A stretch of DNA of 64,000 nucleotides, from contig JAGBSH010000028.1 in the NCBI GenBank assembly GCA_017631885.1, positions 62,001 through 126,000 of the forward strand, written 5' to 3'. Each line of letters begins with the position of its first letter. Position 1 is the first letter of the stretch. The notes beneath the pieces were generated by a model. The model had not been told where the DNA came from, did not search any database, and saw only the letters and a list, made by a program, of their open reading frames with translations. Origin of the DNA: Fibrobacteraceae bacterium. Lineage in GTDB: Bacteria > Fibrobacterota > Fibrobacteria > Fibrobacterales > Fibrobacteraceae. A program made the translations under genes and the position numbers. Shown piece after piece: positions 8,013 through 39,173 of the stretch.

Positions 8013-11000
8013 TTACTCCTTTTTAGAAGAATCAGCACTTGTTGTTAAAGAATCAACTGAAGATTCTTCTTTAACTTCTTGAACAACAGGAATAGAATCC
8101 GGCCAGCGTTTTACATCTTCTAAAGCAGATTCTAAACGCATTCTACCTTCTCTGTCATAAGCAGGCAATGTATTTAAACCACGTTCTAACAAAGCCTTAG
8201 CTTCTGCTTTTTTATTAGCAGCTTGGTAAACAAAGAATGCAGTCCAATAACAACGCCATTCTCCTGGGAATTGCTTAATACCCAAATCTGTATAACGGAT
8301 TGCTTCATTTACAAGAGAATCCATCTGGTTTTTCACAGTTTGTGTGTGCGGCAATTTACGCAATAGATCCAACTGTTCGCGGTATTTTGTAGCGATTTGC
8401 AAATACAAGAAGAAATAGCTACTCAATAAGCGAGAAGTTTCACTATTGATATAAGCCGTTCCATCGCCTAAACCACGATACTTATAAACACTATCAATCA
8501 ATGCTTGTGTTCGCACTGCATCAAAAGCATTTTTCTTTGGTTCTAAATCGCCACGAATAAGGTTATAAATCAAACCTTCTTGAACCATATATTTTTCAAT
8601 ACCTAAAAAGTTAGAAGCACCAACGGTTGTTGAAAAATGAAGTGGCTTATCAAAATTATTCAATGCAAGATCCAAAACCAGTTTATGCTGAGTAAGCATT
8701 AAACCATTACGATTTTTATTTGCCCATTCTTCAAAGGAATCCCAAATTTGGTATTGCGATTTGTAAATGAAAAGAGAGTCTCTTGAAGCTGTTGAATCAC
8801 TTTCAATAGCTGCTATTTTCTGTTCTAAAGACTTTTTATTTTCTGTTGCTTTAGAAAGCCAAGTCTGGACAAAATTATTTGGGTTCTTGTAATACTCACC
8901 TTCTAAGACCATGTCTTTATCAATTGAAGCGTGGTCATAGCTTAGTTTTAAAACCGGTTCATTATCAAGCATTTGCTTAATATACCAGTCTGTATTGCCA
9001 AGACTCAAATTAACAACACGAACATCTTTGCGGATACCAGCCACTTCTTGCGCAAACCAAAGTGGGAATGTATCGTTATCTCCATTTGTAAAGAGAATTG
9101 CATTTTTACGACAACTATTCAGCAAGTTATAAGCGTAATCCCAAGGGACCCAAAGGCCCGAACGATTGTGTTCTGTGTAATTTGAAAGTAAAGGAACAAA
9201 GAAAGATACACAAGAAAGAGCTACTGCCAAAGGCAACGCAAAAGCCATTGCTTTTGCAGCAAGAAGCCAGACTAAAATACCAGCCCCTATACCAAACATA
9301 ATACTCATGAAAATAAATGCTGGTGTATAGAAATAATCACGTTCACGAACTTCTAAATGAACTGGCGTCGGGAATTGAATGTATTGTCCAATTCTTTCAT
9401 AAGCCTGCCATGCCGGGTTTGCATAAGCCGCACGTAAACGTTGTTCTGCGTTTTGGATTTCTTGAGCAGAAAGTTTACGTTGTTTTGCTGCTTCAAAAGC
9501 ATATTCTGCATTTGCTATTTCTTGTCTTGCATCTATCAATTTATGAGGATCAGGAACACTTCCTACTTTTAATCCACTCATTTGTAGAGTTTGAACGGTT
9601 TTTTGAGCATGAGCAACCCATGCATCATAATCGCGTTTTTCCATGCGGGTTCCATCCGCGAAATTGATATAGAAAAGAAGGCCAAGAGAACAAAGTGCAT
9701 AAAGAACAGAAAGGAAAATTCCATAATTTCTATGACGTTTGTAAGCAAATACGCAAACAGCAACCAAAAGTCCATTAAACAACAAGAACCAAACCAATTG
9801 CATAAATGTTTGATCTCCCATTGCAGCCATTTGTGTAGGAAAACTAATTCCAAAACGTTTTAATGGGGCGTTATCTTGCATATCAAACGCATAAGAGCCA
9901 TTATAGAAATTAACTTCACCCACTTTAAACGGCAAATATTGAGCTATTTGGTAACCACCCAATCCCATGTGTGGGAAACTTAAGAATTGATGGGCTAAAG
10001 AAGAGCGTCTATGGAAAGCACGAGATATCATACTTTCTGAACCGTATTGTTTACGTTCAATAAAATTATTGAAAGCTACCCAATTTTCATCTTCTAAAAG
10101 GTTGCCTAATTGTAAATTCCCTTGTTCATCACGAATATTGATTTCTGGGTTATTTTCATCAATAACTGGATTCAATTCCGAACGAATTGGAATGTAAAGG
10201 TGTGTGCTATACCCAATTAAAGCCACTACTGTAAAAGCTAAAGAAAGCTTTATCGCATGTTGGATTTCTGCTTTAAATGGTTTTGCAAAAGTTAGAACAA
10301 CTAAAGCTATCAGTAAAAATAAGGACCATTCAACAAAAGAAGACACATAATAGATTACCGAACAAAGAACGACTCCTGTAATCCATATTGGTAAACGCTG
10401 TACAATTTTCTTTGGTTCTGCTAATAACAACAATACAAAAACGGCTGGAATAGTAAGCATTGTATAAAGGTGTGCCCCAACGCCTAAGAAAGCGATATAG
10501 CACATAAAAATCAAATATCTATCCGCTTTATCTTCTTCATTTCGTTTGTCATACCAGACAAGTCCTAGATAAGAAATCAAAAGCAAAATAAACATGGCAA
10601 GGCCATAAACTTCAGCTTCTACTGCATTAAACCAGAATGTATCTGAGAAGGTAAGCAAGAAACCAGCAACAAGGCCCGCACAAACAAGAGAAATTGTTCT
10701 AATTCGAGCTGAAAGTTTTTCTCGTAAAGAATCTTTAGATAAAATTTTTGACAAGAAATCCCAAGCAAATAAAACGGCAACATAAACCGTTGCTGCAGAA
10801 CTGACTACTGATATGTAGTTCACTCGTTTTGCAATTTCTTCGACAAACGGCAAAAGAATAATGACCGCTCGACCAAGAAAAACAAAAAACGGCGTTCCTG
10901 GTGGGTGTGGAATTCCAAGTGTATTAGCACAAGCAATAAATTCGCCACAATCCCAAAAACTAACTGTTGGAGCCATGGTCAAACAATAAACAACCAAAGC

Positions 11001-11057
11001 GACAAGGCAAACAAAACCCGCCGTAATGTGTTTTACCATTCGTTCAGACAATTTCAT
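8013..11057 (-). CDS. DUF2723/GT117 membrane glycosyltransferase, TMEM260-like
   Basis: 1014 residues. The first 600 hold about a dozen membrane helices, and the last 400 are soluble and probably periplasmic with some TPR-like helices. The N-terminal loop SFWDCGEFIACANTLG (about 33-48) followed by IPHPPGTPFFVFLGR is the conserved DUF2723 signature; it has an acidic pair where GT-C enzymes keep their catalytic residue in the first outer loop. The eukaryotic member TMEM260 is a protein O-mannosyltransferase. It is followed by a DPM1-like and a GtrB-like synthase that could supply the lipid-sugar donor, so I infer transfer of a sugar to exported proteins. Acceptor and sugar are unknown. Confidence 0.83.
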   Translation of the reverse strand: MKLSERMVKHITAGFVCLVALVVYCLTMAPTVSFWDCGEFIACANTLGIPHPPGTPFFVFLGRAVIILLPFVEEIAKRVNYISVVSSAATVYVAVLFAWDFLSKILSKDSLREKLSARIRTISLVCAGLVAGFLLTFSDTFWFNAVEAEVYGLAMFILLLISYLGLVWYDKRNEEDKADRYLIFMCYIAFLGVGAHLYTMLTIPAVFVLLLLAEPKKIVQRLPIWITGVVLCSVIYYVSSFVEWSLFLLIALVVLTFAKPFKAEIQHAIKLSLAFTVVALIGYSTHLYIPIRSELNPVIDENNPEINIRDEQGNLQLGNLLEDENWVAFNNFIERKQYGSESMISRAFHRRSSLAHQFLSFPHMGLGGYQIAQYLPFKVGEVNFYNGSYAFDMQDNAPLKRFGISFPTQMAAMGDQTFMQLVWFLLFNGLLVAVCVFAYKRHRNYGIFLSVLYALCSLGLLFYINFADGTRMEKRDYDAWVAHAQKTVQTLQMSGLKVGSVPDPHKLIDARQEIANAEYAFEAAKQRKLSAQEIQNAEQRLRAAYANPAWQAYERIGQYIQFPTPVHLEVRERDYFYTPAFIFMSIMFGIGAGILVWLLAAKAMAFALPLAVALSCVSFFVPLLSNYTEHNRSGLWVPWDYAYNLLNSCRKNAILFTNGDNDTFPLWFAQEVAGIRKDVRVVNLSLGNTDWYIKQMLDNEPVLKLSYDHASIDKDMVLEGEYYKNPNNFVQTWLSKATENKKSLEQKIAAIESDSTASRDSLFIYKSQYQIWDSFEEWANKNRNGLMLTQHKLVLDLALNNFDKPLHFSTTVGASNFLGIEKYMVQEGLIYNLIRGDLEPKKNAFDAVRTQALIDSVYKYRGLGDGTAYINSETSRLLSSYFFLYLQIATKYREQLDLLRKLPHTQTVKNQMDSLVNEAIRYTDLGIKQFPGEWRCYWTAFFVYQAANKKAEAKALLERGLNTLPAYDREGRMRLESALEDVKRWPDSIPVVQEVKEESSVDSLTTSADSSKKE

Positions 11058-16607: not shown

Positions 16608-18692
16608 TTATTTCACTTGATTCAAACGAATAAGTTTAGAAGTGTTTTTACCTCGCAACAGATAAATGCCTTGATTGAAACTTAGAGAACTATTTTTTAA
16701 CAAGTTTGCGGCCTCTTCAAGGTTCATCGCTTTTATACTTGTCAAACGCTTGCCTTGTAAATCAAATACGTCAAAATAACTTTCTGTAGCTGGGGTAAAC
16801 TTTATGCTTTTTTCAATCGCTGTTGAACTTGAATCGCCACCGATTGGTTCTGGGTCTTTGGCATTTTCCCCTTTTACAAAGGTAAAGTAATCAACATCCA
16901 TCCAATCACCAACAACAGTAAAGCGTAAAATATGTTCGCCCAAAGGTAGTGTAACATTAGCGCTTACTTTGTTGTAATCATCATAATTTTCTTCGCCTTC
17001 ATTTTGTGGAACAGAAATTACATCTGTAAGAGGTTCTCCGTCTAAAGAAAGTTGAAAACTTGAAGTCGCATTAGCCGAAGCAACTGCTGCAAACATAGTG
17101 TAAGAACCGGCTTCTTTAACATTGATGGTGTATTCTAACCATTCGTCAGCTTGGTTATAACCAACAATAACGCCTGTTCCTTTTTTGTACAAATCAACTC
17201 CTGTGTCTTTGCGATAATCTGAATCGCCATGGTTTTCAGAATCTTTATCGCTATAAGTTTTATTTGCTGAACCAGTCCCTGGAATATCAAAGTTTTCGGC
17301 TTCAATTTTACCTGGAAGTTCTTGCACTAAACCACCAAATGGTTCGCGTGGGATTTTTATTTGTTGCCCTACGCCTACAAGAGTCATAATACAATCTTTA
17401 TTCATTGTTATAGTAACACTTCCATTTTTAACTTCAACTTCACCTTCTTTGGTTGCATTTTTTGTTTCACTCGTTGTAAAAACTTCAAATGACTCAATTT
17501 TAGTGCCTGGGACATTTACTGTTACAGTTTTATTTTGCCCGTAATCTCGATTTATTAAAACAACTATCACAGAATCACCATCAGCACTTTTGTAAGCAGA
17601 AGCATAAACATTTGCTTCTGGCTTTGCTGTTGCACCAACACGAATAGCGCCTGGCCGCACAAAACGAGCAAATTGAGAAAGAACATAACCGCGCTTGCTA
17701 ACTTTACCAATTTCATTTGACGGAATAGAAAGTTTGTTACCAAAATCCTTTTCCATTATCAAGCCATAACAACGACGGATATACCACCAAGTATATTGAC
17801 TAAAATTCCCGACAACCATCGCTCTATGGATTTCATACCCCACATCAAGAGCACGAACCGTATCTAGTTTATTCACATTAGCTTGATCACCAGTATTCAT
17901 AACAACGCGCCAATAGTTTCCACTCCCTTGGCTTTCTGTGTAATGTTCTGTCATCCAGCGTTCTACATTTTTTTGGTCAGCAAGGCTATAAGCAAAAAAG
18001 TCATCGCTTGTATTTGCTTCACTTGCATAAAAGTGAGCCCCTAAAATATCCCAGTTTTTTAAGACATTTGCATCATTTAAAACTTTATTATAAAGATTTT
18101 TTTGGTAAGCAAATGATTCTGCAGAAATTACCTTTGTTCCATGTTTTCTTAATTGATTTGCATAATCTCTGGTATAGTTATAAATTTCATCAGCACTCCA
18201 ACACGTCCATTCGCCACACCAATCTGGTTCATTTTGAAAACTAATGGCATACAAAGGCGCCCCTTGATTTTTCATGTATTCAGCAAAGCTATTCAAATGA
18301 TCAGTGTAAGCCTGATAATTACTTGCACTAATATGAGCGCCTCCACCTGCAAACTTAGAAGTCCATGGCGTTGCATACACAATAGCTCCACGTGCTTGCG
18401 CTAATTTAGCAACAGCAAGTTCTCTATTAAATTCACTTTCATTAGCATTTACTGGGATACGTAAAACAGTAAGCCCAAGTTGCCCATCTCCACTACCAAA
18501 AGCAAGGTCGGCATCAGCTTCACTAAGGCCATTTCCGCCTTGCCAAGTATTGTGAACCATTCCACCAAAGCCACGAATGACTTGATGTTCTTCATCTAAA
18601 TCCACATTGACTGTTGAGGCACAAGTTAAACTCCAAAACCCTACAACACCAACGGAGATTCCAATTTTTTTAACAATTTTTTGAATTGTCAT
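16608..18692 (-). CDS. Secreted GH30 (GH30_8-like) xylanase with CBM6
   Basis: 694 residues from the ATG at 18692, chosen because AAAGGAGAT precedes it; an upstream ATG at 18719 overlaps the previous stop and has no such site. A signal peptide (1-27, ending TCAS) leads into a GH30 barrel: IRGFGGMVHNTW, acid/base Glu in SFQNEPDW, nucleophile Glu in RWMTEHYT, and TWWYIRRCYG, the loop whose Arg contacts glucuronate in glucuronoxylanases. A CBM6 follows (about 449-608) and then a 70-residue tail (about 625-694) with FDVFDLQGKR and GIYLLRGKNTSKLIRL, similar to Fibrobacter C-terminal basic or sorting tails. It would cut acetyl-stripped glucuronoxylan outside the cell, beside the CE6 esterase encoded just upstream. 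Confidence 0.92.
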   Translation of the reverse strand: MTIQKIVKKIGISVGVVGFWSLTCASTVNVDLDEEHQVIRGFGGMVHNTWQGGNGLSEADADLAFGSGDGQLGLTVLRIPVNANESEFNRELAVAKLAQARGAIVYATPWTSKFAGGGAHISASNYQAYTDHLNSFAEYMKNQGAPLYAISFQNEPDWCGEWTCWSADEIYNYTRDYANQLRKHGTKVISAESFAYQKNLYNKVLNDANVLKNWDILGAHFYASEANTSDDFFAYSLADQKNVERWMTEHYTESQGSGNYWRVVMNTGDQANVNKLDTVRALDVGYEIHRAMVVGNFSQYTWWYIRRCYGLIMEKDFGNKLSIPSNEIGKVSKRGYVLSQFARFVRPGAIRVGATAKPEANVYASAYKSADGDSVIVVLINRDYGQNKTVTVNVPGTKIESFEVFTTSETKNATKEGEVEVKNGSVTITMNKDCIMTLVGVGQQIKIPREPFGGLVQELPGKIEAENFDIPGTGSANKTYSDKDSENHGDSDYRKDTGVDLYKKGTGVIVGYNQADEWLEYTINVKEAGSYTMFAAVASANATSSFQLSLDGEPLTDVISVPQNEGEENYDDYNKVSANVTLPLGEHILRFTVVGDWMDVDYFTFVKGENAKDPEPIGGDSSSTAIEKSIKFTPATESYFDVFDLQGKRLTSIKAMNLEEAANLLKNSSLSFNQGIYLLRGKNTSKLIRLNQVK
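16761..17355 (-). repeat. CBM6 module repeat, copy 1 (in the GH30 gene)
   Basis: This 595-bp segment aligns without any gap to 18881-19475 (constant offset of 2120 bases) and differs only by scattered, mostly silent changes. It encodes the CBM6 with its flanks, from the PREPFGGLVQELPGK linker to the start of the tail domain. The identity stops abruptly at both ends, which marks it as a moved or converted module. Confidence 0.92.
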
Positions 18693-18718
18693 TTTTATCT
18701 CCTTTTTTTTTGAAATCA

Positions 18719-20341
18719 TTAGCGAAAAGCATTCACTTTTGCCACGTTTCCATTTGCTCTACTGCGAATTAAAGCCAAACCTTGAATACGTGTAGAGCCT
18801 TTAATTGAACCAGAAAGCCAGATTTTTGAAGCTTCTACAATACTTCTGGCTGTAAAACTGGCAACTTTTTTACCACTTAAATCAAATACGTCAAAATAAG
18901 TTTCTGTATCTGGGGTAAAGTTTATGTTATTAACAATCGCTGTTGAACTTGAATCGCCACCAATTGGCTCTGGGTCTTTTGCATTTTCCCCTTTCACAAA
19001 AGTAAAGTAATCAACATCCATCCAATCACCAACAACTGTAAACCGTAAAATATGTTCGCCTAAAGGTAATGTGACATTTGCATTTACTTTATTATAATCT
19101 TCATAGTTTTCTTCGCCTTCATTTTGTGGAACAGAAATTACATCTGTAAGAGGTGCACCATCTAAAGACAATTGAAAACTTGAAGTCGCATTAGCCGAAG
19201 CAACTGCTGCAAACATAGTGTAAGTACCTGCTTCTTTAACATTGATTGTGTATTCTAACCATTCATCGGCTTGGTTATAACCAACTATTACACCTGTTCC
19301 TTTTTTGTACAAATCAACTCCTGTGTCACTGCGATAATCTGAATCGCCATGGTTTTCTGAATCTTTATCGCTATAAGTTTTATTTGCTGAACCAGTCCCT
19401 GGAATATCAAAATTTTCTGCTTCAATTTTACCAGGAAGTTCTTGCACTAAACCACCAAATGGTTCGCGTGGGATTAAAACGGCTGGTTCACGAGAGATAT
19501 GTTGTAACATTACTTGAGCATAGCGTTCACCCATGCCTCTGTAGCCTTCAACTGTAAAATGCAAACGATCACTTGCTCCAGGAAGGTTATCCGATTTTAC
19601 AACATAAGCATTATTGATATATTGTGGCAATTTATTAACTCTATCACTCATACCATCACAAGCGCCGCCATCAAGCATTTCACCGGCTACAAATGGGACT
19701 TCATCGGCATTCAAGCCAAGTTCTGTGATAATTGTATTATAAGTAATAGCTACGCGACTTTCCCAATCAGAAAGGCCACCATCGGTTTCACCTTGGTGGA
19801 AAATAATCCCTTTAATAACGCCAACTTCTTGGGCTTTTTTGGCAATTTCAAGAATGCGCCCCATAGCATTGCCATCACTGCCGTAATCTTTTGCCCAATT
19901 TACAAGCCAACTTTCTGATGAAGAAAGATAAGATTGGTATTCATTTAATTGATAAAGTTTAATACTTGTTCCACCAACAGCAACAGGAATAATGCCTATA
20001 GTTACATCAGGCAAGCTATCTGCCATATGACGGCCAAACCAATCTGCTACAGAAAGACCTTCATAACAATGAAACATCGGCGGGATAGCTGGGTAAATTT
20101 CGCCAACTGTTGGACGATTTAAGTTAGAACAAGATGTGGTGGCAAACATTTTAAAACGAGGGTGTTCTTGCTTATCGTAATCTGTAAAATCTTTGGCAGC
20201 TCCAGCCATATTAGATTGCCCATATGCAATGTAAATATGAAAATTTGGGTCTGGTGCCGCCATTACACTTATTGAGAAAAGTCCAATTACAGCCAAAGCT
20301 TTAATTGAAGAAGATAAAACCTTTTTTTTCCAAGCAAACAT
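18719..20341 (-). CDS. Secreted CE6 acetyl-xylan esterase with CBM6
   Basis: 540 residues. A signal peptide (1-28, ending VMAA) is followed by an SGNH-like CE6 esterase domain (about 30-285) with the nucleophile Ser in YIAYGQSNMAG, the oxyanion Gly in PVAVGGTSI, FHQGETDGG, and the catalytic Asp-His in SDRLHFTVEG. CBM6 occupies about 292-450, and a tail of about 75 residues (FDVFDLSGKKV) closes the protein. The architecture matches Fibrobacter succinogenes Axe6 esterases, which remove acetyl groups from xylan. A strong AAGGAG site precedes the ATG. It is the first gene of a two-gene operon with the GH30 xylanase, a pairing that makes sense because deacetylation exposes xylan to the hydrolase. 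Confidence 0.93.
   Translation of the reverse strand: MFAWKKKVLSSSIKALAVIGLFSISVMAAPDPNFHIYIAYGQSNMAGAAKDFTDYDKQEHPRFKMFATTSCSNLNRPTVGEIYPAIPPMFHCYEGLSVADWFGRHMADSLPDVTIGIIPVAVGGTSIKLYQLNEYQSYLSSSESWLVNWAKDYGSDGNAMGRILEIAKKAQEVGVIKGIIFHQGETDGGLSDWESRVAITYNTIITELGLNADEVPFVAGEMLDGGACDGMSDRVNKLPQYINNAYVVKSDNLPGASDRLHFTVEGYRGMGERYAQVMLQHISREPAVLIPREPFGGLVQELPGKIEAENFDIPGTGSANKTYSDKDSENHGDSDYRSDTGVDLYKKGTGVIVGYNQADEWLEYTINVKEAGTYTMFAAVASANATSSFQLSLDGAPLTDVISVPQNEGEENYEDYNKVNANVTLPLGEHILRFTVVGDWMDVDYFTFVKGENAKDPEPIGGDSSSTAIVNNINFTPDTETYFDVFDLSGKKVASFTARSIVEASKIWLSGSIKGSTRIQGLALIRSRANGNVAKVNAFR
18881..19475 (-). repeat. CBM6 module repeat, copy 2 (in the CE6 gene)
   Basis: Partner of 16761-17355, same orientation, 595 bp with no gap. 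The translated modules differ at only a few residues (for example KDTGVDLYKKG versus SDTGVDLYKKG, and DGEPL versus DGAPL). Confidence 0.92.
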
Positions 20342-32362: not shown

Positions 32363-33907
32363 TTATTCTTCAATTGCTGGAGCTTCAACAACTTCTTCTT
32401 CAACAATTTCCTCTTCAACCACTTCTTCTACAACCTCTTCTTCAACAACTTCTTCTTGTGCAGGAGCTGCTTCTTGTTTTTTAGGTTGTGGAGCTGGTTT
32501 TGCCACAGGCTTTGCTTCCACTGGTTTGGCTTCTGGAGCTGCTCCAACCTTTTCTACTGTAGGTTCTGAAGTATCTACATTACCTGTATAGTTGCGGATA
32601 ATTCTTGGAGTAACAAAGATAACCAAGTCTTTCTTGATAACTTGTTTTCTAGAATATTTAAAGAGGTTTCCAAGAATTGGAATATCTTTTAAGAAAGGAA
32701 TACCACTTTCGCTTTCCTGATTTTCATTACGGGTAAGACCACCGATAACAACTGTTTCACCATCAGCTACAACAACTTTTGTTTTAGCTTCTTGTGTAGA
32801 AATAACCACTTCACCTTTGGTGTCATAATCATAAGAGTTGTTTTCTGGGTGCAAGTCAAGAAGAATGCGATTATCGCCAGAAACGTGTGGGGTAACAGTC
32901 AACTTGATACCTGTTTCAACAAGCTGTGTAGAAGATTCACCTTCGTCGTCAATCACACGAATAGAAATCTTATCACCCATAAAGACTTGTGCTTCAGTAT
33001 TGTCCAGTGTTGAAACTTGTGGACTTGCCAAAACTTCAGTAGAAGCGTCCCCCATCAAGTTAGAAATAGCCACTTGAACATTGTTATCCAAAACGCTTGC
33101 TGTAATTGCGGTGGATGCTCCAGAAACTGCTGGAGATACCCCATTGTTTGGGAACGATTGAATTGCTCCACTTATACGGCTTCCTGTTCCACCACCAGTA
33201 GGAGTTCCTGCAACGCCAGGAGTCAAAGTGGTTGAACCCATACGAGCAGTCCAATCCACACCTAGTTCTCTTGAAAGGTTGCTGTTTACAACAACAAGCT
33301 TTGCAGAAATCATAATCTGGAGGGTTTCGACATCCAATTCTTCCAATGCATTGCCCATCTGTTCAATGCTTGATTCTGTATCGTAAACGATAATAGAGTT
33401 ACTGCGTTCTACAACACTGATTTTACCACGACTGGTTTTCATGCTTTCAAGAACTTTTACTAACTCTTCAGCTTTCGCATGGTGAACTGCAAAATTTTTA
33501 CGAATCAAAGGAGCTACTTCCTTTTCTTGCTTTTCTGCTTCAGCCATTTTCTTCTGCTTTGCTTGGTAAGTAGCAGAACGTTGGATAGAAATGTATTTGT
33601 CTTGAACTAGCCAGACTAAATCATACATTTCGCAAACTATATCCAAAGTTTCTTGCCATGTTTTCTTGGTAACCTTCAAAGAAAGCTTACCTTTAACATC
33701 TGGAGCAAGCAAAATGTCTATACCTGCTGTAACAGAAATCGAGCGGAAAACAGCTTCATAGTCTGTATCCACAAACGTGAAGTCGTACAGTTTTTTGTTA
33801 GGCACTTGCTGTTCAGCTTTTGCCGGAGAAGGATTCTCAGTTTGAGCAAACGGAGAAACCGCTGCACCAAGGAGAATTAGACTAAAAAGGTATGCTGTTT
33901 TTTTCAC
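32363..33907 (-). CDS. pilQ: Type IV pilus secretin PilQ
   Basis: 514 residues, short for PilQ. A signal peptide (about 1-21) is followed by an STN/secretin N0-like domain (about 42-105: DFTFVDTDYEAVFRSISV), an N1-type domain (about 135-200) and the secretin channel with VEIG-like TQLVETGIKLTVTPHV and the final ETVVIGGLTRNENQ. It forms the outer-membrane pore for the pilus. It lacks the N-terminal AMIN domains of classical PilQ. After the secretin domain comes an unusual tail of some 75 residues: a Pro/Lys/Ala part, then Glu/Val repeats (EEVVEEEVVEE). It overlaps the previous gene by 4 bases (ATGA). Confidence 0.92.
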   Translation of the reverse strand: MKKTAYLFSLILLGAAVSPFAQTENPSPAKAEQQVPNKKLYDFTFVDTDYEAVFRSISVTAGIDILLAPDVKGKLSLKVTKKTWQETLDIVCEMYDLVWLVQDKYISIQRSATYQAKQKKMAEAEKQEKEVAPLIRKNFAVHHAKAEELVKVLESMKTSRGKISVVERSNSIIVYDTESSIEQMGNALEELDVETLQIMISAKLVVVNSNLSRELGVDWTARMGSTTLTPGVAGTPTGGGTGSRISGAIQSFPNNGVSPAVSGASTAITASVLDNNVQVAISNLMGDASTEVLASPQVSTLDNTEAQVFMGDKISIRVIDDEGESSTQLVETGIKLTVTPHVSGDNRILLDLHPENNSYDYDTKGEVVISTQEAKTKVVVADGETVVIGGLTRNENQESESGIPFLKDIPILGNLFKYSRKQVIKKDLVIFVTPRIIRNYTGNVDTSEPTVEKVGAAPEAKPVEAKPVAKPAPQPKKQEAAPAQEEVVEEEVVEEVVEEEIVEEEVVEAPAIEE

Positions 33908-35751
33908 TTGTTACCCCCAAATTTATCGGGCAAACCCATAGAATAACGACGACTTACACCAAATTCCTGAATAAGGAATAGCACATCCGTCTGTGTGATT
34001 TTAAGAACTTTCCCGTTAAGAACTTTATCGCCTTCCTTAATGGTATAAGAGATAGATGGTGTTTTAACGTCTGACAAAATAGCCATTGGTTCATCAGATT
34101 CCCAAATGATACCAACAAGTTCTACTTGGTCAATATTTATACCATCTTCAACTAATCCCTTTACATCAACAAAAGGATCACGACGACCAAAAGAACTATA
34201 CATAACTCTGTCATCATTATTTAATGCTGCAAAACGAGCATTTACAGAATCTAAACTTTCACCTTTTTCAACAGCTAACTGTTTTAAACGTTCTGTCTGG
34301 ATAGCCGAAAGTTCATCTCGGAATGCAACAGCTCGCTTGTTCACGTAGCCTGTACGAGGGCCATACTGCACTTTTTGGTACAACCCTATCAATTCAACAC
34401 TTTCTAAAATATCACCAAAAGCAAGACGAGCAATTACTGTTGATTCTTCTGATGGTGTTTCATAAAGTTCTATTTCTTCAGCTGTTACAATCAATTCCCT
34501 TGCTACAGAAGTCAAGAAAAATGCTTGAGCTGCAGAAATAACTTTCTTACTATCTTTTTCATAACGAGCTACAAAAGAATCAATGTTTACAGGTTCTTCT
34601 TTATCCATAACCCAACGTTTTGAATGAATGCCTGTTGGCAAAGCTTTCCAATAGACATAACCATTCAACAATTTGGTTTCTTTTGTTTGAAGTAAAAGAG
34701 AACCTTCATTGACTATCATAGTCGGATGAATTCCTGTTAATAAAGAAATCTGCAAACCATCTTTTGTCCAAGTAACAGATTTCACAAAAGAATTAGCATT
34801 TACCTTAAAGACTGGAGATTTTGTAGGGCCAGGCATTGATATAATAACTGCATGTTTCTTTTCTAAAAAAGAAACTTTTTCAATATCAAGTGGCATGAGC
34901 ATTTTCAATTCAAACTGATTTTTGCCAAATCCAGAAAAAGCAGTCATTTCAGCAACGCCATCAATCAACGCAGAAACAGCAGATGACTTAGTCGTATCCA
35001 CTTTTGCAGAATCTTTTTCTTCAGCGGCTTTAAGCTTTGCAGCTTTTTCTGCTTCTAATGCAGCCTTCTTTTCTTCAGCAGCTTTAAGCTTTGCAGCTTC
35101 TTCAGCCGCTTTCTTTTCTTCTGCGGCTTTAAGCTTTGCAGCTTTTTCTGCTTCTAAAGCTGCTTTCTTTTCTTCAGCAGCTTTAAGCTTTGCAGCTTCT
35201 TCTGCCGCTTTCTTTTCTTCTGCGGCTTTAAGTTTGGCAGCTTTTTCTGCTTCTAAAGCTGCTTTCTTTTCTTCAGCAGCTTTAAGCTTTGCAGCCTTTT
35301 CCGCTTCTCGCTTATTTGCCGCAGCAATAGCAGAAAGTTTCCAAGATTTTGCTTTAACTAACGGCAAAGTAACAGAAAAATTGGCATCTTTCAGCAAAAC
35401 CGGATTTTTATCGCTTTTTAATGCCAAGCCAGCAGTCCATTCAAATTTAAGAAGTGGACCTTGGCGACCAGAATCTTTAAAAACACGCACATCTTTCAAT
35501 AATGTAGAGGCCGTATCTACAACAAATGATGTTTCCCCTAAAGAGAATTCACTTGCAGCAAAAGCAACCGTCCATTTACCAGTTTTTTCATCATATTTTT
35601 GGAAATAGCTAGGTAAATCCGCGGCATTTGCAAAACGGAATGTAAGATTGCATGATTTTTTACTGCATGAAAAAACCACATCTTTTACTTGCGCAGCAAA
35701 ACTCTGCGTAACTGCAAATAGGAAAGAAAATAAAATGATTTTATAATTCAT
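33904..35751 (-). CDS. pilP: PilP-type pilus protein with AMIN-like, Lys/Ala/Glu repeat and SH3 regions
   Basis: 615 residues, over three times a normal PilP. In order: signal peptide (1-19); AMIN-like beta region (about 22-130); TolA-like helical repeat rich in K, A and E (about 147-247); second AMIN-like region (about 260-355); bacterial SH3-like domain (about 427-480, ELYETPSEESTVIARLAFGD); and a PilP-like C-terminal domain (about 515-615) with RRDPFVDVKG and QVELVGIIW. There is no lipobox. Its place between pilO and pilQ supports a role joining the inner-membrane PilMNO complex to the secretin; AMIN and SH3 parts can bind peptidoglycan. The PilP assignment rests on context plus the C-terminal pattern. 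Confidence 0.78.
   Translation of the reverse strand: MNYKIILFSFLFAVTQSFAAQVKDVVFSCSKKSCNLTFRFANAADLPSYFQKYDEKTGKWTVAFAASEFSLGETSFVVDTASTLLKDVRVFKDSGRQGPLLKFEWTAGLALKSDKNPVLLKDANFSVTLPLVKAKSWKLSAIAAANKREAEKAAKLKAAEEKKAALEAEKAAKLKAAEEKKAAEEAAKLKAAEEKKAALEAEKAAKLKAAEEKKAAEEAAKLKAAEEKKAALEAEKAAKLKAAEEKDSAKVDTTKSSAVSALIDGVAEMTAFSGFGKNQFELKMLMPLDIEKVSFLEKKHAVIISMPGPTKSPVFKVNANSFVKSVTWTKDGLQISLLTGIHPTMIVNEGSLLLQTKETKLLNGYVYWKALPTGIHSKRWVMDKEEPVNIDSFVARYEKDSKKVISAAQAFFLTSVARELIVTAEEIELYETPSEESTVIARLAFGDILESVELIGLYQKVQYGPRTGYVNKRAVAFRDELSAIQTERLKQLAVEKGESLDSVNARFAALNNDDRVMYSSFGRRDPFVDVKGLVEDGINIDQVELVGIIWESDEPMAILSDVKTPSISYTIKEGDKVLNGKVLKITQTDVLFLIQEFGVSRRYSMGLPDKFGGNK
35010..35310 (-). repeat. Tandem repeats encoding the Lys/Ala/Glu helix of the PilP-type protein
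   Basis: In-frame units such as KAAEEKKAALEAEKAAKL and KAAEEKKAAEEAAKL alternate about three times. The nucleotide strings ttcttcagcagctttaagct and gcagctttttctgcttctaa recur with few changes. The low complexity also keeps a long antisense frame open, which is not a gene. Confidence 0.85.
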
Positions 35752-36386
35752 TATTTCTTACCTCCCTGAGGAGCTGCAGCTGGTGCTTTAGGTTTAACAA
35801 CTTTTGAAGTATAAGTAGTCAAATTAAAGGAAACAGAAACAGTAATAGGAGTCCAACCATGAGATTCTGCTTTCTGTAATTCATTTGCTATGCCGGAATA
35901 CCTTCCAAGACGCAAATCAGTAATCATTGTCGGGTAATTGAAATTTGCAATTTCAGCAAACAAATAACCTAACATGTGATAACCAGAATTAACTACAATA
36001 GAATAACGGTTCTCTATGTAGTGTTCCTTTTCAGAACGACCTTCTGGGTTAAACTTCTGGATTTGTACCCCAGAACTGCGAAGTACCGCATAAAGATCTT
36101 GCAAGCGAAGAGGTACTTTTTCTTCTTCTGGGAACATTTCCCTCAAGCGTTCAAAATCTGCTTCTGCTTCGACCAATTGCAATTCCAATTCTGCAATCCG
36201 ATTCTTTTGCAAATTGATTCGTTGCAATTCCTGTTCAGCTGCTTCTAATTCTGAACGCAACTGTTGTTCTTCAAGAACAAAAGGATTCCATACATAATCA
36301 TATATGTAGTACGCACTGCCAATCAAGAGCAAGCTGACGACCAGTGCGAAAATGGTTTTTTTGTCTTTCCAGTCTATGTTCTTCAT
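35751..36386 (-). CDS. pilO: Type IV pilus inner-membrane protein PilO
   Basis: 211 residues: one N-terminal membrane helix (about 12-30), a coiled-coil with many Glu and Leu (about 38-82) and a ferredoxin-like periplasmic domain (about 85-195) with LQDLYAVLRSSGVQIQKFNP, the usual PilO pattern. The tail is rich in Lys, Pro and Ala. PilO pairs with PilN and contacts PilP. It overlaps pilN by 4 bases, and its stop touches the next start. Confidence 0.9.
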   Translation of the reverse strand: MKNIDWKDKKTIFALVVSLLLIGSAYYIYDYVWNPFVLEEQQLRSELEAAEQELQRINLQKNRIAELELQLVEAEADFERLREMFPEEEKVPLRLQDLYAVLRSSGVQIQKFNPEGRSEKEHYIENRYSIVVNSGYHMLGYLFAEIANFNYPTMITDLRLGRYSGIANELQKAESHGWTPITVSVSFNLTTYTSKVVKPKAPAAAPQGGKK

Positions 36387-36994
36387 TCCTTAGACTCCTC
36401 CAGACCCAAATCTTCACGGATTTTCGCCTTCATTGTGAAAGTATAGGCATCTTCACCTTCTACTTTCGTATTTGTAATCGTCACAAGTGTAACCGAAGCG
36501 ATACTGACTTGCTTTTCTAATTTAACCATATATTCAGCGACTTCTGAAAAATCATACGTGGTACCACGTAATTCCATTTCATAGGCTGAAGTCTGTTGCA
36601 AAGCAGTTAGCCACATATTAGGAGGTAAAATTGCTGAAATATTTTCAAACAAAATCACCCAACGTTTTTTGCTGACTTGAATAGACTTCAAGGCATTACG
36701 CTTCTGGGTAATAATGGCAATTTTTCCATCTAATTCTTTGATTTTATCTAAAAGTGGCTTTTCTTTTTCGATTTCAGCTTTAGTCGAAGCTAAAGCATTC
36801 TGTAAAGTTTGTCTGCTATCGTTCATATAAGCAAACAACAAGAAAATACAGAATATAAAAACGATTGTTGCTACAACTGGCCAAACAACTCGCCTATCAA
36901 GAATCCATGAGAAATCTTTTTTCTGACGACGGAATTCAGCCGGCAGCAAATTGATTTCTATACAGAGATTCAAATCTTTTTTCTTTGTTGCCAT
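36383..36994 (-). CDS. pilN: Type IV pilus inner-membrane protein PilN
   Basis: 203 residues. The N-terminal cytoplasmic segment has INLLPAEFR (about 14-22), the conserved PilN motif that docks into PilM. A membrane helix (about 36-54), a coiled coil and a periplasmic domain with MWLTALQQTSAYEMELRGTT follow. It starts one base inside the end of pilM. Confidence 0.93.
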   Translation of the reverse strand: MATKKKDLNLCIEINLLPAEFRRQKKDFSWILDRRVVWPVVATIVFIFCIFLLFAYMNDSRQTLQNALASTKAEIEKEKPLLDKIKELDGKIAIITQKRNALKSIQVSKKRWVILFENISAILPPNMWLTALQQTSAYEMELRGTTYDFSEVAEYMVKLEKQVSIASVTLVTITNTKVEGEDAYTFTMKAKIREDLGLEESKE

Positions 36995-38082
36995 TAGAAT
37001 TTCCTCATTGCTAGTCCGAGAGCCGGAGCATAAATGTTGGAAAGAGCTAGAGACATTCCTTTATCTCCCACTACGGAAGAATCACACACAACATTACGGA
37101 ATGGGTTAACCGTTTCAACGCTTAAACCAAGCCTTTCACTCAAGTAAGATGTCAAATTAGGCAAGCAAGCACCGCCACCGCCTAATAAAATCTTTTCTGG
37201 ATTTTCAGCATTATCTAATGAAGAGAAATAGCGAATACCAAATTCTATTGCACTCACAATTTCTTCATACGAAATTTTCAAAGCTTCTTCTACTTCTGCT
37301 TCTGAGAAACCATCTACACAAGAAGTATCACCTGTTTCAAAAATCGTATGGCATTTTTCTGCATCAATATTAAGGTGTTTACAAAGCATGCTGATTACAG
37401 AATCCAACGCACCACTAGTCATAGTCCGATAAGAATTGAAATTTCCGTTCATCAAATAAACGGCATCCATTTTCTTTTCGCCAATGTTAAACACAATTAC
37501 AGACTTATCGTGATCTTCTGCTTCGACTGTAGCAGTATAAGCATTTGCTAAAGCAAAAGTAGAAACATCAACCGCTGAAAGTTTTTTATCAACACGAGTA
37601 AAGAAGGCAGCCCAATCTTCTAATTGAGCATTTTTCACAGCCACAGCTGCAATGTTGACTTCATCACTATTTCTTGATAAAACTTGATAATCAAGAACGT
37701 TATCAGGGTCATCAAATGGTGGTTTTGTTTGAACCATTTGCAATAAGAAAGCATCTTCATTTGCATTTTTAGGAACTTTCGCAGACATTAAATCAACAAG
37801 GACTCCAGAAGCCCCGTTGATAGAAGCAATGTATTCTGCAACACCTTCTTCTATCATGCTACGTGCGAAAAGCTTAGAAATGACTTCCTGAAGTTTTTCG
37901 GCGTCCTGAATGCTACAATCAACAACAATGCCTTCTGAAAGAGGCTCTAAATCAGCAGACAGCACAATATGCTCACCCTTGTGGGTGTGCAACATTCGAA
38001 CCATCTTAACGCTATAGTGGCCAATGTCGATTCCGACAGTTTGGCGTTCACCTAAAACGCGTGCAAGCAAACGAGAACTCAA
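36994..38082 (-). CDS. pilM: Type IV pilus actin-like protein PilM
   Basis: 362 residues. An actin/FtsA-like ATPase fold is indicated by VGIDIGHYSVKMVRM near the start, VFNIGEKKMDAVYL in the middle and KILLGGGGACLPNLTSYL near the end. It sits on the cytoplasmic face and binds PilN. The best start is a TTG at 38082 (reading SSRLLARVLGERQTVG); only a weak GCGGGG stands before it. It is the first gene of pilMNOPQ and has its own promoter at 38116-38144. Confidence 0.93.
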   Translation of the reverse strand: MSSRLLARVLGERQTVGIDIGHYSVKMVRMLHTHKGEHIVLSADLEPLSEGIVVDCSIQDAEKLQEVISKLFARSMIEEGVAEYIASINGASGVLVDLMSAKVPKNANEDAFLLQMVQTKPPFDDPDNVLDYQVLSRNSDEVNIAAVAVKNAQLEDWAAFFTRVDKKLSAVDVSTFALANAYTATVEAEDHDKSVIVFNIGEKKMDAVYLMNGNFNSYRTMTSGALDSVISMLCKHLNIDAEKCHTIFETGDTSCVDGFSEAEVEEALKISYEEIVSAIEFGIRYFSSLDNAENPEKILLGGGGACLPNLTSYLSERLGLSVETVNPFRNVVCDSSVVGDKGMSLALSNIYAPALGLAMRKF

Positions 38083-38171: not shown

Positions 38172-39173
38172 TCAACCGCTTACCCCCTTTTGGAGACGAT
38201 TTTGATGCCTTCTGAGCTCAAAAATGTATTGCAAAACCTTTTCATTTGTCCAAGCAAAGTCTCCAATAAACTTTGCTGAATAAGAAAAAAGGTCTGGATA
38301 ATCGGCATTTTTTTTCCCCAAATTCCTTAAAATTTGGATTTCAACCACATCTTTTCCATAACTTGGCAATTCAAATTCAATTTTCATTTCGGTTCCAGAA
38401 TTAAATTCTTCTGGCAATCCAAGACCAATACCATTAGCAGAAAGGTCAAAAAGCCTACCTTGTAATGAATAACCTTCTTGAACTTCTGCAAGAATTTCAA
38501 TATCCACTTTTTCACGAACCCACAAGCGTTGTTGTTCTCTTACAATTTTTTTTGTATGAAGAAAAACGAGTTTTTCACCTATTTTCTTTTCAAACCGCGG
38601 AAACGTGGTATAAGTCGCATCTCCAGCTCGCTTCCAACTGATTGGATAACGAACTCCTTTTTCAAAGACATCGTCTTTTAAACCTTCTCGAACAACAGTG
38701 AATATTTTTTCATTAATACTGCTTACACACAATCGTTCCACTTTGCCATTCATTTTTAAATGCACTAAAGTACCTGGTTCAAATTGCCGAGTTGAAACAA
38801 AAATGATTCCATCGTTACCAACAGTAAAACCTAGTTTTCGCCTAATGACAGTTACAGAAGATAAAGTTATTTCGCGAATAGACTCTAATTTCCGGAATTC
38901 ATAAAAACGATTTACGGCATCTTCAAATAAAGCCGAAGAATTAAACAAAGCATCTTTATTTGAAAAGACAGAACGACGAACCAGTTTATCCATCGTATGG
39001 CGTTCTTTTTCTGTTAAACGGAATTTATTTGACTTTTCTATGAAATCTGCAGAACCAAACATTTCTTCGTGTTCACGTTTTTGATTGTTTCTATGGATTT
39101 CTAACAAAATCAAAAGCACCAATAGCAAGGTGACTATTGTTCCTATCCAGACAAGAACTATAGGTTCAGGCAT
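38172..39173 (-). CDS. Membrane-anchored PilZ-domain protein
   Basis: 333 residues. One N-terminal membrane helix (about 5-25) is followed by a helical part, a YcgR-N-like beta domain (about 100-200: LGFTVGNDGIIFVSTRQFEPG) and a PilZ domain (about 210-310). The c-di-GMP motifs are present: RxxxR in QRLWVREKVD and D/NxSxxG in DLSANGIGLGLP. It should bind c-di-GMP at the inner membrane. The gene overlaps pyrX by 8 bases and ends 90 bases before pilM, so it is a good candidate regulator of the pilus encoded next to it. Confidence 0.85.
   Translation of the reverse strand: MPEPIVLVWIGTIVTLLLVLLILLEIHRNNQKREHEEMFGSADFIEKSNKFRLTEKERHTMDKLVRRSVFSNKDALFNSSALFEDAVNRFYEFRKLESIREITLSSVTVIRRKLGFTVGNDGIIFVSTRQFEPGTLVHLKMNGKVERLCVSSINEKIFTVVREGLKDDVFEKGVRYPISWKRAGDATYTTFPRFEKKIGEKLVFLHTKKIVREQQRLWVREKVDIEILAEVQEGYSLQGRLFDLSANGIGLGLPEEFNSGTEMKIEFELPSYGKDVVEIQILRNLGKKNADYPDLFSYSAKFIGDFAWTNEKVLQYIFELRRHQNRLQKGVSG

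Follow-up and report, generated by a model that had tools for sequence, protein, structure and literature searches.

The type IVa pilus machine is usually considered to attach to the cell wall through AMIN domains of the secretin PilQ. Which component would hold the wall in a lineage whose PilQ has no such domain? This question is raised by a pilus operon within a 64,000-nucleotide stretch of DNA from a Fibrobacteraceae bacterium (assembly GCA_017631885.1, contig JAGBSH010000028.1), hereafter the window, in which a 615-residue protein encoded between pilO and pilQ combines a PilP-like C terminus with further domains of putative wall-binding type. We propose that this protein probably serves as PilP in the type IVa pilus of Fibrobacterota, and that it also carries the peptidoglycan anchor module that PilQ lacks. 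The gene's position, the predicted folds, their conservation across the phylum and the AMIN-less PilQ are the grounds from which we infer the anchoring role.

Locus and predicted domains

The genes for PilM, PilN, PilO, the PilP-slot protein and PilQ follow one another on the minus strand of the window, and the PilP-slot gene overlaps pilO upstream by 1 base and pilQ downstream by 4 bases. The open reading frame listing places it at 33904-35751 on the minus strand, with 615 residues, and so agrees with a preliminary description of this DNA, which had assigned the same coordinates and length to a gene in the pilP position. The protein lies between pilO and pilQ, as expected of PilP, and the pilO-X-pilQ order is kept in those relatives whose contigs span the locus. 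The operon and the parts of the protein are as follows.

33904..35751, minus strand: PilP-slot gene, 615 residues, with predicted signal peptide, N1 (AMIN-like), helix, N2, SH3 and HR (open reading frame, AlphaFold2 model, gene order in relatives)
35695..35751, minus strand: signal-peptide-like N terminus, residues 1-19, without lipobox (sequence reading, lipobox pattern scan)
35365..35694, minus strand: N1, residues 20-129, predicted AMIN-like beta domain (AlphaFold2, VIA-align, hhalign)
35083..35337, minus strand: predicted single long Lys/Ala/Glu helix, residues 139-223 (AlphaFold2)
35015..35295, minus strand: tandem repeat of 99 bases (33 residues), 2.8 copies, 96% match, in the helix-coding DNA
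34609..34956, minus strand: N2, residues 266-381, predicted beta domain, possibly a divergent AMIN (suggestive; AlphaFold2, Foldseek, VIA, profile)
34321..34497, minus strand: bacterial SH3 domain, residues 419-477 (Pfam, AlphaFold2, VIA-align)
34171..34200, minus strand: YSSFGRRDPF, residues 518-527, motif before HR (low pLDDT here)
33934..34125, minus strand: HR (PilP/GspC-type) domain, residues 543-606 (VIA-align), expected to bind the secretin N0
32363..33907, minus strand: PilQ, 514 residues, N0/STN, Secretin_N and Secretin, without AMIN (Pfam)
35751..36386, minus strand: PilO (PF04350, E 4.3e-14)
36383..36994, minus strand: PilN (PF05137, E 6.1e-15)
36994..38082, minus strand: PilM (PF11104, E 8.2e-31)

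The source genome (2.37 Mb, 98.8% complete) contains no second PilP candidate by PF04351 at E up to 10; it does contain a second secretin on a different contig and six T2SSE-type ATPase matches. Directly upstream of pilM, at 38172-39173 on the minus strand, lies a gene for a PilZ-domain protein (PF07238, E 8.9e-7), a possible cyclic di-GMP input to the pilus operon.

Family searches reveal little of this composition. The sole Pfam match in the 615 residues is SH3_3 at 429-474 (E 5.9e-4, 20.4 bits, short of the 27-bit cut-off); the AMIN and PilP families gave none at E up to 10, and searches of Pfam, NCBIfam and PDB sequences for either were negative or weak. The domains were recognized in an AlphaFold2 model built with 44 aligned sequences, namely the window protein and 43 proteins picked from 69 loci as complete and varied (alignment A3). 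With a mean pLDDT of 79 and a pTM of 0.36, the latter too low for the arrangement of domains to be inferred, the model can be used for its single domains. From the N terminus onwards these are a beta domain (N1), a helix of 85 residues, another beta domain (N2), an SH3 domain of bacterial type and, at the C terminus, the HR domain; pLDDT is 89-96 in blocks of N1, 86-95 in N2, and about 92 in the helix, dropping there to below 60. Among Foldseek matches to the whole model, the PilP chain of a type IVa pilus machine model (3jc8_Pa) ranked second (E 1.5e-4), and the B2 domain of Neisseria PilQ (4aqz) ranked 24th (probability 0.99, E 0.061). Domain-level comparisons were then made with VIA-align over the chains ranked highest by Foldseek.

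In the model the C-terminal domain adopts the HR fold, aligning with three PilP structures (2lc4, Z 8.9; 2y4y, Z 8.6; 2ivw, Z 8.1) and with GspC (3oss, Z 8.7, root-mean-square deviation 1.8), and the SH3 domain matches bacterial SH3 structures (4r0k, Z 11.9; 9ovi, Z 10.3), consistent with an SH3b fold. Ahead of HR, a Y...RDPF motif occurs in 66 of 66 complete proteins of the phylum and resembles the RSPF/KSPF of two canonical PilP. A loose lipobox pattern was absent from the window protein and from 60 of the 66, and was found in the other 6; the window protein therefore does not have the signature of an inner-membrane lipoprotein that is typical of PilP.

N1 appears to be AMIN-like, and good evidence for this comes from both its predicted fold and its profile. 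Taken from the full-length model, it aligns with the AMIN domain of Escherichia coli AmiC (4bin; residues 19-132, Z 10.1, root-mean-square deviation 3.0 over 104 residues) and with Neisseria PilQ (4av2; residues 23-130, Z 8.1), an AMIN-type fold by either comparison. That the VIA list for the whole model offers no other families for N1 is uninformative, because SH3 fills most of its rows. For profile comparison, nine AMIN sequences were combined (AmiC, two pieces from each of two PilQ, two from locus L033, and one each from L031 and L032, described below), the pieces being cut by eye and not all of them having Pfam confirmation. Against this profile, the N1 family reached a score of 31.1 (104 columns, hhalign probability 66%), and 36 control windows of similar depth, drawn from eight genes of the neighbourhood with up to 45 sequences each, gave a mean of 11.0 and a maximum of 13.7; this control set is small and includes windows that are not beta, and 3 of 11 neighbouring genes yielded none. 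The SH3 and HR domains of the protein scored 9.9 and 8.1. First domains of 28 deep-branching PilP reached 29.1 over 67 columns, and the AMIN-like trait therefore seems to extend past the family; class-level second domains reached 22.0 over 61 columns. Two cysteines of N1, Cys29 and Cys34, are invariant in 23 of 23 proteins (alignment A1).

For N2, an AMIN-like nature is suggestive only. Folded alone, it gives a pLDDT of 87 and a pTM of 0.78, and its top two VIA rows are Neisseria PilQ (Z 6.5 and 6.4), followed by small heat-shock proteins at no more than 5.2, although by the tool's own note a Z under 8 may reflect merely a common arrangement. The preliminary description had read the chain as two AMIN-like regions, a helix, an SH3 domain and a PilP-like end without a lipobox. 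The folds bear out the SH3 domain and the PilP-like C terminus, the pattern scan bears out the missing lipobox, and the model reproduces the remainder except for the second AMIN-like region, whose case is weak, so that this parse stands in part.

PilQ and PilP across Fibrobacterota

The window PilQ contains the Pfam domains Secretin and Secretin_N, with STN and GspD-N0 below cut-off, and has no AMIN match at E up to 10. A Pfam scan of 27 of the PilQ sequences at hand (26 from Fibrobacterota and an Aeromonas control) found AMIN in none of the 26, the one match among the 27 being, by its E-value, the Aeromonas control; the claim of the preliminary description that the adjacent PilQ lacks AMIN thus holds for this protein and for the relatives scanned. 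In 67 Fibrobacterota PilQ, the residues ahead of N0 number 29-96 (median 42), signal peptide included, and therefore leave no room for both a signal peptide and an AMIN domain. Past its secretin domain, at residues ~440-514, the window PilQ has a long tail, Lys/Pro/Ala-rich and then Glu/Val-rich.

No protein of the source genome matches Pfam AMIN at E <= 0.001, and across 120 phylum genomes there are three matches, all outside PilQ: an amidase by Pfam (L031), an amidase by sequence reading (L032) and a 311-residue protein with two AMIN stretches (L033). The last of these, at L033:1363-2298, adjoins a coiled-coil protein with what reads as a TonB-like end, in a genome without a PilP of the Fibrobacterota type.

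The window protein has matches in 52 of 60 genomes, its own included, and since it recurs so widely the domain arrangement is more than chance. A profile of the HR domain matched 147 of 167 phylum genomes, again counting its own, and 145 of these matches are strong. The other two (G052 and G100; E 6.9e-5 and 2.7e-4) lie in open frames of 157 and 182 residues from a second secretin system, and 145 is therefore the number that we count. Ten of the 20 genomes without an HR match are under 80% complete. Four others, forming one genus-level group (G039, G041, G043 and G050), match neither the HR nor the PilQ profile and seem to have lost the pilus machine; five (G062, G066, G071, G086 and G107) have weaker secretin matches only, and the remaining genome is G098.

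Complete proteins (n = 66), counted from the first possible start codon, range from 313 to 793 residues with a median of 588, which rules out an assembly artefact or a chance fusion; at one locus (L037), the PilP and PilQ starts were trimmed by choice, so that its lengths are chosen ones. The long PilP design is phylum-wide in Fibrobacterota. Most of the named records among the 69 loci come from Fibrobacter or Fibrobacterales, and they include Candidatus Fibrimonas termitidis. In a Pfam scan of 50 of the 66 complete proteins, with E up to 0.05, SH3_3 was found in 26 (best E 1.5e-16). PF04351, which is unmatched in the window protein and its genome, appeared weakly in 6 (best E 0.0061), as compared with 159.7 bits for the PilP of the Aeromonas control.

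A second, distant PilO-like/secretin system is present at L129-L132, L151, L170 and L171, and at L129-L132 and L151 it includes short HR proteins of 154-185 residues, the ordinary size of PilP or GspC. These were considered as forms of the PilP-slot gene and rejected, as they belong to this second, low-scoring PilO-like/HR/secretin system.

At 0.15 nm per residue, the predicted helix between N1 and N2 (residues 139-223) would extend ~12.7 nm, and the preliminary description had suggested that the helix could span the periplasm. Most Fibrobacteraceae proteins examined have a Lys/Ala/Glu-rich stretch between N1 and N2. In 23 relatives, however, the N1-N2 segment varies from 29 to 201 residues, and in some of them it has no such stretch. 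In other families (L038-L041, L043, L044, L047 and L137), the stretch stands directly ahead of HR, following an SH3-like stretch in L039, L044 and L047 (partly by reading), and a clade that includes Candidatus Fibrimonas termitidis has neither an N1 match nor the stretch. Varying length and shifting location rule out a conserved periplasm ruler and make a periplasm-spanning function doubtful; the helix is a variable spacer, fixed in neither length nor place. Antisense to its repeat, at 34922-35608 on the plus strand, is a Ser/Ala/Phe-rich open reading frame of 228 residues that appears to be no gene but a mechanical reflection of the repeat.

Elsewhere in the window, two adjacent genes for CBM6 proteins (one of GH30 C-terminal type, one with a SASA esterase) at 16608-20341, minus strand, are probably plant-wall degradation genes, and a 1014-residue protein with a TMEM260-like O-mannosyltransferase domain (E 3.3e-49) is encoded at 8013-11057, minus strand.

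Proposed wall attachment through PilP and its alternatives

Because the domain pattern recurs across the phylum, wall attachment via PilP is the simplest functional reading of these observations. The C-terminal HR domain would dock on the N0 domain of PilQ, by homology with PilP, GspC and OutB, for which HR binding to N0 has been reported (PMC9239104), and would thereby tie the secretin to the PilM-PilN-PilO inner-membrane complex. The anchor module would consist of N1, often N2, an SH3 domain in about half of the members, and spacers of variable length; judging from domain type, N1 and perhaps N2 and SH3 would hold peptidoglycan, so that the machine may be anchored to the wall through PilP against pulling. 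In place of a lipid anchor, the simplest guess for the hold on the inner membrane is a contact with PilN/PilO via the conserved Y...RDPF segment. More tentative, though close to evenly poised, is the proposal that the wall-anchoring module on PilP is phylum-wide and that load passes from the HR-N0 contact through PilP to the wall, leaving the spacer free to vary.

Several observations weigh against this account of the protein as PilP and wall anchor. PF11741, the Pfam AMIN family, matched none of the 50 PilP scanned at E up to 0.05, and neither 17 PilP nor the window protein at E up to 10. For class-level first domains, the alignment to the AMIN profile covered just 27 columns (score 20.7). 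In Foldseek, N2 alone matched nothing at E <= 0.001 (best E 0.21, mostly immunoglobulin-type chains on top); it scored 16.1 over 38 columns of the AMIN profile, and in VIA its best row stood at Z 6.5 versus 5.2 for a small heat-shock protein. The HR domain scored 18.3 against two proteobacterial PilP in hhalign, which is not significant beside controls of up to 17.7 or 21.6, depending on direction. Finally, a genus-level clade with PilP of 380-388 residues (L024, L026, L029, L030 and L052) shows neither an N1 match nor AMIN on PilQ, and N1 is therefore dispensable there.

Some of these findings would be expected if the N-terminal beta domains were unrelated beta sandwiches that merely look like AMIN: beta sandwiches match one another easily, N2 alone draws mostly immunoglobulin-type chains, and the 50 proteins yield no Pfam AMIN match. 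We regard this as improbable, since the alignments of N1 with AMIN structures reach Z 10.1 and 8.1, none of the 36 controls attains even half of the N1 profile score, and divergent AMINs can escape Pfam, which shows one AMIN stretch in a control PilQ from Aeromonas that we would expect to have two. Alternatively, N1, N2 and SH3 might be structural parts that form a periplasmic cage or contact PilN, PilO or PilQ, the AMIN-like fold serving as a scaffold that does not bind peptidoglycan. Such a role would accommodate the distance of N2 from known AMINs, the lineages in which N1 or SH3 goes undetected and the existence of proteobacterial PilQ without AMIN (PMC7545093). It seems unlikely, however, given that an AMIN-like domain and a bacterial SH3 domain, of types found in wall-binding proteins (PMC5285504 for AMIN, the VIA matches for SH3), occur together in one protein beside a PilQ without AMIN.

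A further alternative concerns history, and is compatible with PilP as the wall anchor. The preliminary description had peptidoglycan binding move from the secretin to its partner, which implies an ancestral PilQ with AMIN. If Fibrobacterota PilQ never had the domain, PilP would have gained AMIN-like and SH3 domains independently. Every Fibrobacterota PilQ examined, from deep lineages as well, is without AMIN and without space to hold it, so that no intermediate was seen; on the other side, AMIN on PilQ is common elsewhere, with one to three in 170 of 197 proteobacterial type IVa pilus secretins (PMC7545093). We consider independent gain a serious possibility, if somewhat short of an even one.

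Relation to known systems

Canonical PilP (PF04351), as in Pseudomonas, Neisseria and Aeromonas, shares with the window protein the slot between pilO and pilQ, the C-terminal HR fold and an (R/K)(S/D)PF motif before HR. The Aeromonas control has 177 residues and, by sequence reading, a lipobox-like LTAC, whereas the window protein has 615 residues, no lipobox and no PF04351 match, and carries AMIN-like and SH3 domains. Among the matches listed in searches of the open-access literature, we found no description of AMIN or SH3 domains on PilP. In working mode, the protein is comparable to the type II secretion components GspB/OutB (and GspA-GspB): the HR protein OutB attaches both to the secretin N0 and to peptidoglycan (PMC9239104), and an HR protein can therefore be secretin partner and wall anchor at once. 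OutB begins with a transmembrane helix and uses a C-terminal extension, in contrast to the signal peptide and folded N-terminal domains of the window protein, and the window gene stands in a pilMNO-X-pilQ pilus operon instead of a type II secretion locus, so the likeness is limited to working mode.

Compared with AMIN-bearing PilQ, the window PilP would share both the type of domain and the kind of machine, with likely the same wall target; here the domain is on the partner protein and not on the secretin, where Fibrobacterota PilQ has no room. FimV has its LysM on a separate protein, unlike the window domains, which are fused to PilP. TsaP, too, has LysM on a separate protein. Both are further wall-binding parts of type IVa pili (PMC9239104, PMC5285504). 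In a different machine, that of flagellar export, frequent mention of AMIN in a paper on FliO (PMC12403147) suggests that FliO may carry an AMIN-type domain.

In Pseudomonas, it is through the AMIN domains of PilQ that the machine is recruited to the septal wall, and these domains have been proposed to counter retraction force (PMC5285504). PilQ without AMIN was already known from 27 of 197 proteobacterial type IVa pilus secretins, and its loss was said by the authors to merit further investigation (PMC7545093). A phylum with the domain on PilP would supply an answer for one lineage. The protein would also fill a gap in an inventory of Fibrobacteres, Table 4 of which, in the portion available, lists PilM, PilN, PilO and PilQ with no PilP row seen (PMC4704652). 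If wall attachment does run through PilP, and if AMIN sat on PilQ in the ancestor, a domain would have been transferred between two partners of one machine in a whole phylum. Fibrobacterota, the phylum of the rumen cellulose degrader Fibrobacter, would in that case allow one to test cleanly whether the secretin itself must hold the wall or whether a hold somewhere in the complex is enough.

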